42,268 bases of DNA from Desulfobulbus sp. (lineage in GTDB: Bacteria; Desulfobacterota; Desulfobulbia; Desulfobulbales; Desulfobulbaceae). Below the pieces are notes generated by a model, which saw only the letters and a program-made list of their open reading frames with translations, was not told the origin of the DNA and searched no databases. Positions within the stretch are counted from its first letter, which is position 1. Every line of letters starts with the position of its first letter. Positions 8,767 to 42,268 of the stretch are shown here, piece by piece. The stretch spans positions 1 to 42,268 of the forward strand of contig JAAYDD010000065.1 in the NCBI GenBank assembly GCA_012729435.1, given 5' to 3'. Position numbers and translations under genes: made by a program.

Positions 8767-10311
8767 TTAATGCACTCCGACAAACGGTTGCATTTCAACA
8801 TCGCATCGTCCACCCACCCGCACATCCTTCATCACTGACTCCTGCAGACACTGCTCACCCCTGTCTGTGGTCCGGCAGTGTACTTCGTACGGTTTACCAT
8901 CGTTCACCCACGACGGTGTTTTTCGATAGCGACCGATCGTCTGAAACGAACAGCCTTGCGGAAGGCCATAGGGAGTGCATCTGCCCCTGCCCGATGCAAG
9001 GGAAACCCGTCGGCCGTCGACAACAAAACCGGGATAATTATCAACGACCGAGATGACATCTCTGTCAGGCTCTTCCCGAACCATAAAACTGCGGAACAGG
9101 TAGCCACCCGGCACCCTGCGATCAACATGAATCCTGGTGTTGGCAATCAGAGCAAAGTTATTCCCGTTTCTGGCCACTGCTCCTGACATGTATTCGACGC
9201 GATTGTAGGCGGGAAAACATTTCCCCATGGCCGGAGCATGGTAGTAGTGCTTGAGAGCCTTCAGATCCGACAGGCTGCTGCCGGGAAAAAGAGCCGCCAG
9301 ATCCGCGTCGCTCCCGTAAAGAATCCTTTCAATATCTCTGATATTCTGAGCATACATACGTTGCAGCTTCTGGTAATTCTGTGTACCTGGCTGACTGATA
9401 TCAGCAAGGTCGTCACGCAGGAAACAGGAGGTCAGCCCGGAAATCTGCGTCAAGAACTCATCCCAGATATTGTATTGAGAGACTGCGGTCACAACACCCT
9501 GAAAATCTCCAGGCGCTCTGCACCCCTGTCGTTGAAGGCAGTTTTCAAGCCCGCGGTTACGGATGGAAAGGGCAATGATGTTCCGTTCGCACGAACCATA
9601 CGCACTGCAACCACGACCAAGATGCCCTTCAAACAGGGCTGTACGCATGACATAGTCAAGGTGCATGGCCCGTCGCAAAGTGCCGGCCGACCACCTGTCC
9701 TGTTGTTCCAGAATAAAACGATTCCATGCCCGCTGCAGAGCCTGACGGCGTTCAAGTAATTGCAGGTTGGCCTGACTGCATGCGGCTGAGTTATGAAAGG
9801 TCCGGATGATCTGATCCAGTTCACTGCCCCTCCCGTTGTCTGCAGAACGCACAGCCGGTGCGGCCCGCTGTACAGGCGGCGGATCAAAACGTGGCGGTTT
9901 GGCCATTGCATAAAGATTACGGACATCAAGCACGTAACGGATACCCACAGGGCAGTGATGGTTGACAACCATGAGAGATTCCCGGGACTTAAACGCATTC
10001 CTGTACTGTTCTGCCGAGGTCGGCGCAGCTCGCCGGGGGTCGACAGCAACTTCAAACCCCACATAGGGAATCCCCTGTCCATCGGTAAGCGGTGCATCAC
10101 CGTACATCATCAGGCAGGGAATAACTGATGTTCCCTGTGGAAGACTGCCTGCCGGTGTTACCGGGCCCCTCTGCCGGAAGGTCTCGGCATCGTAGTAGGG
10201 AATACTCAGATCACCGTTAAAACGGTACAGCGTCATCAGCGGTGTTGCCGGTATATCAGCCCATGCCACGGCAGCCATAAAAAACGTGAACAGAAGCACC
10301 AGTCTTTTCAT
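8767..10311 (-). CDS. Secreted Cys-rich protein of unknown function
   Basis: Signal peptide MKRLVLLFTFFMAAVAWA; 14 Cys counted in the mature chain; family not recognised. Confidence 0.75.
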   Translation of the reverse strand: MKRLVLLFTFFMAAVAWADIPATPLMTLYRFNGDLSIPYYDAETFRQRGPVTPAGSLPQGTSVIPCLMMYGDAPLTDGQGIPYVGFEVAVDPRRAAPTSAEQYRNAFKSRESLMVVNHHCPVGIRYVLDVRNLYAMAKPPRFDPPPVQRAAPAVRSADNGRGSELDQIIRTFHNSAACSQANLQLLERRQALQRAWNRFILEQQDRWSAGTLRRAMHLDYVMRTALFEGHLGRGCSAYGSCERNIIALSIRNRGLENCLQRQGCRAPGDFQGVVTAVSQYNIWDEFLTQISGLTSCFLRDDLADISQPGTQNYQKLQRMYAQNIRDIERILYGSDADLAALFPGSSLSDLKALKHYYHAPAMGKCFPAYNRVEYMSGAVARNGNNFALIANTRIHVDRRVPGGYLFRSFMVREEPDRDVISVVDNYPGFVVDGRRVSLASGRGRCTPYGLPQGCSFQTIGRYRKTPSWVNDGKPYEVHCRTTDRGEQCLQESVMKDVRVGGRCDVEMQPFVGVH

Positions 10312-11755: not shown

Positions 11756-12436
11756 ATGCCCTTTTTACAACCTTCGGATCTGGATGCGATCCGGCTGTCT
11801 TTTCAGGTCGCCTGTGCCGCCACTGTGGTCTCAACGCCGCTCGGCATCGGTGTTGCCTATGTCCTTGTCTATACCCGGATACCGGGGAAATCCCTGATCG
11901 AAGGACTAACCAATCTGCCCCTGGTCCTGCCGCCGGTGGTTGTCGGATATCTGCTCCTGCTGCTGTTCGGCCGCCGCGGCTGGATCGGCTCCTGGCTTAT
12001 GGAACACAACATTCAGGTCATTTTCACTCTCACCGGAGCCATTATCGCCTCATCAGTGGTCGGTTTCCCTCTGCTGGTTCGATCAATCCGACTCGGCATG
12101 GAAACCATTGACCCTGCCTACCGGATGGCGGCCCGCACCCTGGGATCCGGCCCTTGGGATACCTTTTTTACCGTTACCCTGCCCCTCTCCGGCAAGGCTG
12201 TCTTTGTCGGCATGACCCTGATGTTTGCCCGCAGTCTTGGGGAGTTCGGTGCCACCATCATCCTGGCCGGCAATATTCCCGGTATCACTCAGACCATTCC
12301 TCTGGCTATTTACGAGTACACCGGTACACCCGGAGGCGACCGCATGGCACTGTCGTTATGTCTCGTGTCAATCCTTCTGTCGTACGTCGTCCTGTTGATC
12401 AGCGGGGCAGCCTCCCGATCGCTGGACAGAAGATGA
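11756..12436 (+). CDS. modB: Molybdate ABC transporter permease
   Basis: RSLGEFGATIILAGNIPGITQTIPLAIYEY motif. Confidence 0.94.
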   Translation: MPFLQPSDLDAIRLSFQVACAATVVSTPLGIGVAYVLVYTRIPGKSLIEGLTNLPLVLPPVVVGYLLLLLFGRRGWIGSWLMEHNIQVIFTLTGAIIASSVVGFPLLVRSIRLGMETIDPAYRMAARTLGSGPWDTFFTVTLPLSGKAVFVGMTLMFARSLGEFGATIILAGNIPGITQTIPLAIYEYTGTPGGDRMALSLCLVSILLSYVVLLISGAASRSLDRR

Positions 12437-35779: not shown

Positions 35780-35930
35780 CAGAGAAGTGTCTGGCTTTTC
35801 CGCGGCTTGGCGGAATCACAGTTGCGGGACAGCACGGGAATCACACCCGTTTCCTTCGTTCGGATCGCTTCCGGTCAGTTGAAGCGCGGGCATCACTATA
35901 CCGAATCCAGCAGAAAAAGATAGAGTCAAA
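35780..35930 (-). ncRNA. Cobalamin riboswitch upstream of cobU (boundaries approximate)
   Basis: Minus strand core AAGGAAACGGGTGTGATTCCCGTGCTGTCCCGCAACTGTGA (35816-35856) then AAGCCAGACAC, the B12-box region. Confidence 0.85.
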
Positions 35931-38501: not shown

Positions 38502-39647
38502 CTATCGAAGGAGACCCGTCGGTCCTGTACCGGCCATCGGATGGTGCAACCTGATCTCTCTTCCATCAATCACCGCCTGATGATACGCCTGCCCGTGAAC
38601 AACGGACGGCCGCCCCCGCCGACGATGCAAACGGGGAAAACGGGTATTGACAAAGGCTGCCAAGCGTTGCTGCCTCTGTGCTACCGGCAAAGTTGTACCC
38701 GTTGTCCGGCTGTCTTCCGACGGTCCAACAGCTCCGGCTACTGCTGTCTGCAAGGTCTGCCCGAAACCGGCCAGCAGACCGAGGTAGTAACTGCGCCGCG
38801 CAAGACGGCGGTTGCCGGCAAAGGCATGACGGTTCGTCTGCCACAACGCTTCAAGGCGGTTTTCAAGAAAAAAGTAGCAGTGTTCAGCAATGGCCACCGA
38901 CTCCTCTGATCCCAGCAGCTCAATCGTCTTGTAGCTGCAATCAGCTTGCGGGTCGTACTCGGTGGCACAGACAACCCTCACCGCAAAGCAGCGTTCCAGA
39001 AGAACGGCAATAACCTTGCGATGCTCCGCCAGCCTCTGCCGACCGGTGCTGATGGTACGATGCACCAGTCCCTCTTCCCGGGCCAGCGCATCCATATCAA
39101 GCTGGTGGCGGGTGAGGAGTTCTCCGGCGCGCTGCAGGGCGAGTGCTGCTTCATGTTCGTTGTCCGAACACCCCAAGGCCAGTAATTTCCGCACCTTTTC
39201 AACGATTCGTCGTCCCGGCCCGGTCACCGCTGTACCCTGATCCAGCTCCGGAATCCCCTCCGACAGGTCTGCGGCCGCATGCTGAAAACACACGTCAAGT
39301 CCAAGCTGAGTACAGGCTTGGCGAAACAGCGGCCCATGCCCTGCACCAGGTTGCCCGAAAACCTCGTCACAGATCTGGTGGGCAATTTCATGCTTGAACA
39401 CCTGCAGGGTCAAGCGCCATGGGTGTGCACTGATCAGAAAATGACTGAGACTCAAAATCCGTTTGCTCGGCAGCCAGCTACCCAGTTGTGTACGGCTCTG
39501 ACTGATGCGCAGGATCGGCGGTTGCAGAGAAAAGCCGTACTGATAACAGATATCGTCATATTCACGTGACAACTGGTTCAGCCAGGCGAGGTGGAGCCGA
39601 CTGTTGAGACCTTCCATCTGTTCAGGAACCCGAGCCCGCAGCTCCAA
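38502..39647 (-). CDS. SprT-like zinc-binding domain fused to DUF2786-like region (alternative start 39617)
   Basis: VFKHEIAHQICDEVFGQPGAGHGPLF; IVEKVRKLLALGCSDNEHEAALALQRAGELL. Confidence 0.8.
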   Translation of the reverse strand: MELRARVPEQMEGLNSRLHLAWLNQLSREYDDICYQYGFSLQPPILRISQSRTQLGSWLPSKRILSLSHFLISAHPWRLTLQVFKHEIAHQICDEVFGQPGAGHGPLFRQACTQLGLDVCFQHAAADLSEGIPELDQGTAVTGPGRRIVEKVRKLLALGCSDNEHEAALALQRAGELLTRHQLDMDALAREEGLVHRTISTGRQRLAEHRKVIAVLLERCFAVRVVCATEYDPQADCSYKTIELLGSEESVAIAEHCYFFLENRLEALWQTNRHAFAGNRRLARRSYYLGLLAGFGQTLQTAVAGAVGPSEDSRTTGTTLPVAQRQQRLAAFVNTRFPRLHRRRGRPSVVHGQAYHQAVIDGREIRLHHPMAGTGPTGLLR

Positions 39648-40884
39648 GCCGCCGCAAGGCTCCGATACGGGCCTGTATCGGAGGATGGCTGTAATGCAGG
39701 AAGACGTGCAGCGGATGCGGCGTCAGGTTGCTGAGGTTGCTTACACTCAGCTTCTTCAGGCCCTGAATCAATGCATCCCCTCCGCTGCCAGCGCCTCCTG
39801 TTTCCACGGCATAACGATCAGCCTGGTATTCATGGCGTCGTGAAACCAGATTCAAACCAATGGCAAGGACAGTGGAAATCGGGGCATAAAGAAAACCAAA
39901 GAAGACCAGAGAGGCATAAATGGAGAGATGTTCCATTCTGAAGGCTTCAAACAGACCGGGATTGCCCAGAAACAGGGAGAGAATGAAAAACATGATCCCC
40001 ATCTGGGCGATGGACAGCGTCATCATCACCGGAATATGCCGTAGTTTATAATGCCCCATCTCATGGGCCAGTACAGCCACAATCTCATCGGTGTTCAGCC
40101 TGTCCATGAGGGTATCGAAAAAAACAATACGCCGAAAACGACCAAAACCAGTAAAAAAGGCATTGGCCCGGGTAGAACGTCTGGATCCGTCCATGGTGTA
40201 GATACCCTGCAGGGCAAAACGCTGGGCTGCTGCATACCGGGTAATACGTTCGTTCAGGTCACCCTCGTCCAGGGGGATAAACTTGTTGAACAACGGCATG
40301 ATAACCACGGGTGCCAGCAGCTGCACCACAAAAATAAACGTTGCAACAGCTGCCCAGCAGTAGAGCCAGGCCCATGTGCCGGCAAACTCAAAAAACCAGA
40401 GGATAGCCGCCAGCAGCGGGCCGCCGAGAAGAACGGCCAGCAGCAGCCCTTTACCGTAATCAAGAACAAAGGTCGTCACCGTGGTGGTGTTGAAACCAAA
40501 CCGCTGTTCAATGACAAAGGTGGAGTAAACGGAAAAAGGCAAACTGAGAACTGCTGACAGTAAACCGAACAGCCCCGTGAAGAGCAGGCCGGTACCAATG
40601 GAAGAGAGGTTGAAACTGCGGGCAACCAGGTCAATATAATGAAAGCCGCCGACAAGGATAAAGAGGATTGTCAGCACCAGACTGACTGTTGACTGCAGCA
40701 GTGAAAACCTGGTCTGCACCCTGGTGTACTCCTGGGAGCGGACATACTGATCGGGTTGAAACACCCCGGCAAACTCGTCCGGCAGCCGGGGATTGAGCGA
40801 ACGCAGGTTCAGCAGGGCAACCACAAGATCAATCAGGTAGCCGACGAGAAGAACACTGAGAATAAAAAGAAGATAACCGTTCAT
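39622..40884 (-). CDS. Ste24/CAAX-like M48 metalloprotease
   Basis: VLAHEMGHYKLRHI, EYQADRYAVE, HPPIQARIGAL; start at MNGYLLF. Confidence 0.93.
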   Translation of the reverse strand: MNGYLLFILSVLLVGYLIDLVVALLNLRSLNPRLPDEFAGVFQPDQYVRSQEYTRVQTRFSLLQSTVSLVLTILFILVGGFHYIDLVARSFNLSSIGTGLLFTGLFGLLSAVLSLPFSVYSTFVIEQRFGFNTTTVTTFVLDYGKGLLLAVLLGGPLLAAILWFFEFAGTWAWLYCWAAVATFIFVVQLLAPVVIMPLFNKFIPLDEGDLNERITRYAAAQRFALQGIYTMDGSRRSTRANAFFTGFGRFRRIVFFDTLMDRLNTDEIVAVLAHEMGHYKLRHIPVMMTLSIAQMGIMFFILSLFLGNPGLFEAFRMEHLSIYASLVFFGFLYAPISTVLAIGLNLVSRRHEYQADRYAVETGGAGSGGDALIQGLKKLSVSNLSNLTPHPLHVFLHYSHPPIQARIGALRRLGAAGSGS

Positions 40885-41353
40885 GACTGTCGAAGTTCCA
40901 TGAAGTTTATGCCACACAATCTGACTGACGTACGATGCACTTACAGAAGATCGGTGGACGCTGCAATTAAATTGTGGGGTTGACGGGTCTTTACAAAATA
41001 GAGACAAACAGGCACTGTCAAGGTTACAACCTCAACAAAGAGAACTGTGTGAAACCTGCAAACAGGAAAAACTCATTGAGATCGGGGCAACCGGTGTTTG
41101 AGCTGCAGGTACAGCGGGCCGGGTGCTCAAAAAAACGACTGCCAGAATAGCATGATTGCCATGCGATGTCCACCTGTACAGATCTTCTTTTGCCGCTGGT
41201 TATGGCCAAAAACGAACAACCCCGGCAGGTCACAGACCGGGAAGAGATCGATTGTAAAAAAATTACCCAAGCATTGAAAAACAGCAGCATCGCTGCACAA
41301 AATAAGACGTTGAGGAAAGGGGAAGGTTCAGTGTTGGGTTGCTCCCTAATGGC

Positions 41354-41415
41354 GCCCACACACGGCTCACCTGGAGCCGGCTTTTTCGGCGATCAGGTGC
41401 AGCCGATGGTTAGCT
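41354..41415 (-). repeat. attC-like recombination site 2
   Basis: Minus strand AGCTAAC-catc-GGCT(g)CACCTG-atc-GCCG-aaaaagc-CGGC-tc-CAGGTGAGCC-gtg-TGTGGGC; extra base in the left arm. Confidence 0.5.
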
Positions 41416-41461
41416 GATATAACAAGTCGCATTTGCGCCGTAATCGGACTGTTCACAAGGT

Positions 41462-41785
41462 TTAAAGCGCGTTCTGAAGCATCCGCACCTTGTCGCTGGT
41501 CCTCTTGAAGAAGCGTGAAGCATTCTCAAGAGCCTCTTCTAAATTGAGGAGATCTCGATACATGTCTTCCCGACCCACGGATACAGCTTTCGCCTTGATA
41601 TCGTTCTCATATTCGTTTGTAAGCACCGCAATTTCTATTAATCGGCTCATAGCATCAAACATGTTATCAGATGCCGAGGTAAAGCCATAGTAATTGGGCG
41701 GGACTTGCTTATCTTCCAACGCTTTCCTGAGTGCTGGGAAAGGTCCCCATTTGCGCTCGCGGTAAGCTTCTGCCGTCAAGCTCAT
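41462..41785 (-). CDS. Hypothetical protein, likely integron cassette gene (107 aa)
   Basis: MSLTAEAYRERKWGPFPALRKALEDKQVPP...; SD agggagg; lies between two attC-like hairpins. Confidence 0.7.
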   Translation of the reverse strand: MSLTAEAYRERKWGPFPALRKALEDKQVPPNYYGFTSASDNMFDAMSRLIEIAVLTNEYENDIKAKAVSVGREDMYRDLLNLEEALENASRFFKRTSDKVRMLQNAL

Positions 41786-41819
41786 GCTTGGTGCCTCCCT
41801 ATTGGCATTGTCGTCGTGC

Positions 41820-41881
41820 AGCTAACGTGGAGTTCTGCGGACCCGCGCTGTTTGCGGGTCCGCAGGAACGACTTGTTGTGC
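41820..41881 (-). repeat. attC-like recombination site 1
   Basis: Minus strand GCACAACAAGTC-GTTC(c)TGCGGACCCGC-aaacagc-GCGGGTCCGCAGAAC-tccac-GTTAGCT: 15-bp stem with one extrahelical base and core-like ends. Confidence 0.72.
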
Positions 41882-41917
41882 AATTTATATCATATTTATA
41901 ATATGTTACATCGCATA

Positions 41918-42118
41918 TCAAGCCTTGCTCAGCTCTATCCTAACTTTTTCCAAAATCACATATTTTCTGTCGTCAGAAATTCCTCTAAAGGCTTCCTCAA
42001 GCAATTTCACTGTTGCGTCTGTTAAAAGCTGTTTAATCTTCTTTGTATCCCCAAATGAAAAATTTTGTATCTCTATTAATAGTTCTTGATAGTCTTTCAA
42101 GTTCTTTTCTTCTATCAA
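41918..42118 (-). CDS. Hypothetical short ORF, possible upstream cassette gene (TTG start uncertain)
   Basis: LKDYQELLIEIQNFSFGDTKKIKQLLTDATVKLLEEAFRGISDDRKYVILEKVRIELSKA; frame stays open upstream to 42247. Confidence 0.45.
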   Translation of the reverse strand: MIEEKNLKDYQELLIEIQNFSFGDTKKIKQLLTDATVKLLEEAFRGISDDRKYVILEKVRIELSKA

Positions 42119-42268
42119 GTCGTTTGATTTTAGTAACTGCTCAGCAGTTCCCGATATCCCACTAGGCCCTGTTTTTAGGGGATATGAGGAATCGGCTTTC
42201 GTAAACTTTTTGGAGCAATCGCATGATGGTACGGCCGGCTGGCCACGTTACGGCGGAACACCGGCCAC

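Follow-up and report, generated by a model that had tools for sequence, protein, structure and literature searches.

At the right edge of the window, as we call the whole stretch of 42,268 nucleotides that was analyzed, lies in our judgment (probability of about 0.92) the distal end, with the last cassette, of a sedentary chromosomal integron whose integrase has decayed; the host is a Desulfobulbus-type bacterium. The window is the entire contig C37, and its position 42268 is the end of the contig and not the end of the array. It belongs to a 2.56-Mb MAG that is 83% complete and whose nearest named relatives are Desulfobulbus. Elsewhere in the window, the end of an rRNA operon is located at positions 1-535, and a cobalamin riboswitch is located on the minus strand at 35785-35856 (36.7 bits).

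A first-pass annotation had proposed a cassette array, or else an integrase-less attC cluster, at this edge. The cassette array stands, while the available evidence supports an integron whose integrase was inactivated over an element that was integrase-less from the outset. Through loss of the integrase, the element is effectively a CALIN, i.e., a cluster of attC sites lacking an integron integrase (PMC8618304): two attC sites are found in the window and a functional intI was not found.

Two attC sites and the cassette between them

The annotation was correct in describing two 62-bp hairpins whose minus strand is the top strand. Site 1 (41820..41881) reads, on the minus strand, GCACAAC AAGTCGTTC CTGCGGACCCGC AAACAGC GCGGGTCCGCAG AACTCCAC GTTAGCT, with GCACAAC as its R'' box, GTTAGCT as its R' box, an extra C in the left arm, and a short loop. 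Site 2 (41354..41415), the last site of the array, reads AGCTAAC CATCGGCTGCACCTG..CAGGTGAGCC GTG TGTGGGC on the same strand; its R'' box is AGCTAAC, and its R' box has decayed to TGTGGGC, in a position where the finished genome of a relative, G066, has GTTGGGC. The claim that the hairpins have attC-like ends therefore holds for both boxes of site 1, which alone matches the R''/R' pattern in full, but not for the degraded R' box of site 2. The previously reported extra base in the left arm is seen in both sites: both are long, imperfectly palindromic sequences in which one base of the top-strand L'' arm is extrahelical. When folded as single-stranded DNA, the bottom strands are more stable than dinucleotide shuffles of the same sequences (z of −6.7 for site 1 and −3.6 for site 2), and none of the 200 shuffles was as good.

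The hairpins were scored with a covariance model, R2, built from 22 attC sites, each of which stands on the cassette side of an intact integron integrase; all come from genomes elsewhere in the order, with the window's genome excluded from the training set. R2 was given its structure and replaced an initial model, R1, in which RNAalifold found no base pairs. The arms of R2 covary (score of 0.328, reached by 0 of 500 shuffles), the score drops when they are slid, and 73% of the cells are paired. Across the 42-kb window, R2 has exactly two matches at E values up to 10, both of them full length and on the minus strand, and the attC call of the annotation thus survives covariance scoring. Site 1 scores 26.9 bits (E = 6.9e−5). 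Site 2 scores 12.6 bits (E = 0.45), which is weak taken alone, and the score is low because its R' box is TGTGGGC instead of GTTGGGC. In a search of the whole genome of the MAG, site 1 was the sole match among the 150 of 588 candidates that were scored; R2 searched directly on contigs revealed further attC-bearing cassettes on contigs C207 and C329 of the same genome. Simple IUPAC attC patterns run over this genome were uninformative.

Similar sites adjoin integrases in other bacteria. A 26-nt stretch corresponding to the site 1 stem-loop recurs, with 25 of 26 positions identical, in an attC beside an integron integrase of another genus (L137), and close look-alikes of this stem-loop are present in the attCs of the L157 array. 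Within the R''/L'' part of site 2, AACCATCGGCTGCACC is shared with an attC of L144 and the arm CAGGTGAGCCGTG with an attC of L154. A reversed, plus-strand orientation of the two sites was ruled out, given that the model, the extra base, the ORF, and the relatives adjoining intI all point to the minus strand. Taken together, we regard both 62-bp hairpins as genuine integron recombination sites (attC) around one small cassette. The L137 cassette itself (917-1666, genome G104) is located beside an intact integrase, has the site 1 stem-loop in its attC, and encodes a product that, by eye, resembles a TIR-like nucleotide-binding protein.

The complete cassette, of about 467 bp, would extend on the minus strand between the G|TT crossover points of sites 1 and 2 (~41359..41825), as judged from the core sites of the two attCs and from the position, 41358, at which homology to G066 ends. 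As had been noted, the hairpins bracket a 107-amino-acid ORF with its own Shine-Dalgarno sequence (ORF107, 41462..41785, minus strand; GGGAGG at 41794-41799), 34 nt from site 1 to its start and 46 nt from its stop to site 2. A gene and an attC are thus found in the same orientation with G|TT at both ends, although the outer of the two core sites is degraded. Searches with ORF107 gave no match in Pfam, PADLOC, plasmids, or the 257 other genomes of the class, and in PHROG only one below threshold (E = 0.054). Such a lack of known relatives is typical of cassettes. With no match in the class and with G066 homology stopping at the attC edge, the ORF is not a syntenic core gene of relatives, which had been named as the outcome that would count against a cassette.

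Upstream of site 1, the second small ORF of the annotation is present at 66 amino acids (counted from a TTG at 42118). It is, however, only the 3' part of the next upstream cassette ORF (41918..42141, minus strand), whose frame remains open through the junction at 42142 with an insertion sequence (IS). The end of this IS (CAGCAGTTCCCGATATCCC..., 42142..42268, plus strand) interrupts the array and ends the contig; it cuts the ORF of the second cassette and broke the assembly. The IS end is repeated exactly, over 127 bp, in contig C147 of the same genome, and copies with 80-85% identity are found in genomes G119, G163, and G111. The G111 copy adjoins a putative transposase of 460 amino acids with a weak match to Pfam DDE_Tnp_1_assoc. 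Contig C147 was considered as a continuation of the window and rejected, since it has only the 127-bp IS end in common with the window and is oriented in the wrong direction.

The same locus in a finished relative

At its distal end, the array abuts a core gene (39622..41007, minus strand; start perhaps at 40881) encoding a membrane protease that we presume, from its sequence, to be of the M48 family. The finished 3.1-Mb genome G066, which belongs to the same genus, aligns with the window at 98% identity up to position 41358, which is located inside the R' box of site 2, and homology ends there. At this breakpoint, G066 reads GTTGGGCGCCATTAG, and the chromosomal half-site TTGGGC is intact. Beyond the breakpoint, G066 carries other cassettes, with attC sites at L201 2761-2847 and 6028-6099, the former of which folds poorly by free energy (z of +0.9). 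One G066 cassette gene (L201 2853-6015) encodes a UG13a defence reverse transcriptase (PADLOC E = 5e−184) and is split by an IS with a 360-amino-acid transposase. It is followed, in order, by a 285-amino-acid ORF, a C-terminal remnant of an integrase, a putative Y1-type transposase, and the genes on the zupT side.

The same far side is present on contig C76 of the window's own genome. C76 matches G066 as far as CTTG|TT and diverges from it thereafter. Directly after the attI, on the minus strand, the first cassette genes of C76 (L016 107-1335) are an adjacent pair encoding TIR (ThsB-like, PF08937) and SLATT (PF18184/PF18181) proteins; the pair looks like a two-gene defence cassette. From its synteny with G066, we infer that C76 carries the other end of the window's array, the stretch from 42142 to C76 being unassembled. 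If the two conserved flanks are joined in thought, they give CTTG|TTGGGC, a standard core site. The cassette contents suggest that the array may be a reservoir of phage-defence genes and of genes of unassigned function.

In other relatives, the M48 gene directly adjoins another gene, X, with no array between them. An array simply inserted between the M48 gene and gene X was ruled out for the window's genome, where gene X is found in another context on contig C192 (L168 2808-5342). There it is located beside a PAS/HD-GYP-like gene, and the region was therefore rearranged.

Integrase remnants and attI junctions

The search beyond the window that the annotation had called for yielded, in the flank (by synteny) and elsewhere in the genome, both further attC sites and an integrase remnant. 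Six junctions of the CTTG|TT (CTTG|TTRRRY) type are found on contigs C76, C207, and C329 of the window's genome and in G066. All six have a common integrase 3' end, a hairpin, and CTTG|TT on the left and different cassettes on the right. The hairpin of the C207 copy has a paired change, TATCAGC..GCTGATA for TATTAGC..GCTAATA. An attI with cassettes inserted at G|TTRRRY is therefore present, with the C76 copy linked to the window by synteny only. The integrase remnants on C76 and C207 contain stops and C329 carries a fragment; at several loci, the remnants read toward attI, which is the direction of the cassettes.

No match over the TIGR02249 cut-off was found in the window's genome (an 83% complete MAG), in which the integrase pieces are only fragments with stops, or in finished G066, while 130 of 243 genomes of the order have a match over the cut-off for this integron-integrase family. 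Given the 83% completeness of the MAG, an intact integrase could be missing from its assembly. Intact integrons in two genomes of the same genus, G048 and G157 (L212, L213), have the usual divergent layout, and their integrases are about 41-43% identical to the remnant. The closest intact integrases are those of G111 and G163 (53-54%), near which no clear attC was found.

Three other integron-like regions were observed at guaA-related loci. In the window's genome, a second locus on C207 (L014 7500-9302) has a degenerate 3' fragment of guaA, an integrase remnant, an attI junction, a large cassette ORF, and an attC at 9236-9302, and apparently duplicates a guaA-linked integron-like locus. Near this array is an ORF that, by eye, is class D beta-lactamase-like (L014 10223-10966, motif PASTFKIPHTLFALD) and is only a candidate member of the array. 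A third locus, on C329 (L015 11444-13003), consists of guaA, an integrase remnant, an attI junction, two cassette-like ORFs, and an attC at 12261-12328. In G066, the region next to guaA (L221 1-11035) contains several integrase remnants, attC sites, and IS elements, and is a heavily rearranged integron region.

Two alternative explanations do without an integron platform at this locus. Strong GC-rich hairpins beside small ORFs are common and site 2 scores low, in keeping with a small orphan gene that is merely flanked by ordinary intergenic structures, such as REP-like repeats or terminators. However, the full-length matches of the attC model fall exactly on these two sites and are the only ones in 42 kb, matching attCs adjoin intact integrases elsewhere, the G066 homology breaks at the core site, and neither hairpin is followed by an intrinsic-terminator T-run on the strand of the gene. 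This explanation is largely refuted, and we give it hardly any weight. Somewhat less improbable, although still very unlikely, is a CALIN formed by off-target insertion, in which an integrase acting in trans placed cassettes into the intergenic region before the M48 gene without any platform. Such an origin would account for a window without an integrase, for the non-canonical last R' box, and for the relatives in which the M48 gene adjoins gene X with no array. It is contradicted by the opposite end of the locus, where both G066 and C76 have an attI-type junction and an integrase remnant, and by the distal flank of G066, which starts with TTGGGC, as expected of an attI half-site.

Under the preferred explanation of a chromosomal integron that lost its integrase, the array would begin at an attI beside the decayed integrase gene (placed on C76 by synteny) and extend leftward as far as the M48 protease gene, with a gene and one attC in every cassette. 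The bottom strand of an attC would fold and be cut by the integrase between the G and the TT of the R' core, leading to cassette insertion or excision at attI. The integrase would once have built the array at this locus and later been lost, probably before the IS insertion and the decay of the last R' box. The array would now be frozen unless an integrase were supplied in trans.

Possible exchange of the locus and comparison with known integrons

The flanks of the array are unusually similar between the window's genome and G066. Compared with G066, the window is mostly 84-91% identical until about 38.6 kb and 95-100% identical between 38.7 and 41.36 kb; the chromosomal flank at 38690..41358, which comprises part of an SprT-like gene, the M48 protease gene, and the intergenic region, is 97-100% identical, compared to about 85% further left. 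On C76, the interval between 1.36 and 3.79 kb is 91-100% identical, and the sequence past it about 75-89%. A flank of about 2.5 kb on either side of the array is 96-99% identical in genomes that are otherwise about 85% identical. Because both edges of the identity tracts fall inside genes, homologous recombination tracts centred on the array are suggested, and the near-identical flanks suggest that the locus may have been recently exchanged between species by homologous recombination.

Near-identity could also be due to an assembly artefact, in which the contig switches to a G066-like species and the array may belong to another organism. We consider such an artefact unlikely: although the source is a MAG and identity jumps abruptly at about 38.69 kb, a matching jump, from 96% to about 85%, is found independently on C76 at about 3.79 kb, and the cassettes differ from those of G066. 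Whether or not an artefact is involved, the element is still an integron array. We tentatively conjecture, as a possibility that we would not favor, that this lineage had its own reversed-integrase type of integron, in which a conserved hairpin of about 14 bp directly precedes the attI core on its 5' side and the module of integrase 3' end and attI is repeated at at least three loci in one genome. After death of the integrase, whole arrays might then be exchanged between species via the flanks of about 2.5 kb, with no need for the integrase.

The element is a new example of a well-known kind and not a new mechanism, and loss of idle integrases is established (PMC3510236, PMC12444791). The locus adds a well-resolved dying chromosomal integron in Desulfobulbales, for which the same locus of a finished relative shows both array ends and a complete replacement of the cassettes. 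It fits two current views, namely that defence-like cassettes are retained in decayed integrons and that homologous flanks allow an array to be exchanged as one block. Worth following are the reversed direction of the integrase and the identity tracts, which are less common, and also the repetition of the attI module.

Like a CALIN, the assembled stretch carries two or more attC sites and no functional integrase close to them; unlike in a CALIN formed by stray insertion, an integrase remnant and an attI-type junction survive. In the integrons of Treponema denticola, intI is transcribed toward attI (PMC3607928), and the integrase remnant described here also reads toward attI, although in another phylum and with only C-terminal remnants left. 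Sedentary chromosomal integrons with inactivated intI are known, for example, at ilvD in Xanthomonas (PMC12444791). As in the window, these have a fixed chromosomal site, a dead or missing intI, varied and mostly unknown cassettes, and lineage-specific loss. In contrast to the Xanthomonas integrons, the locus described here belongs to another phylum and another chromosomal position, between the M48 protease gene and the zupT-side genes, and the cassettes seen differ wholly between two related genomes, with the integrase dead in both.
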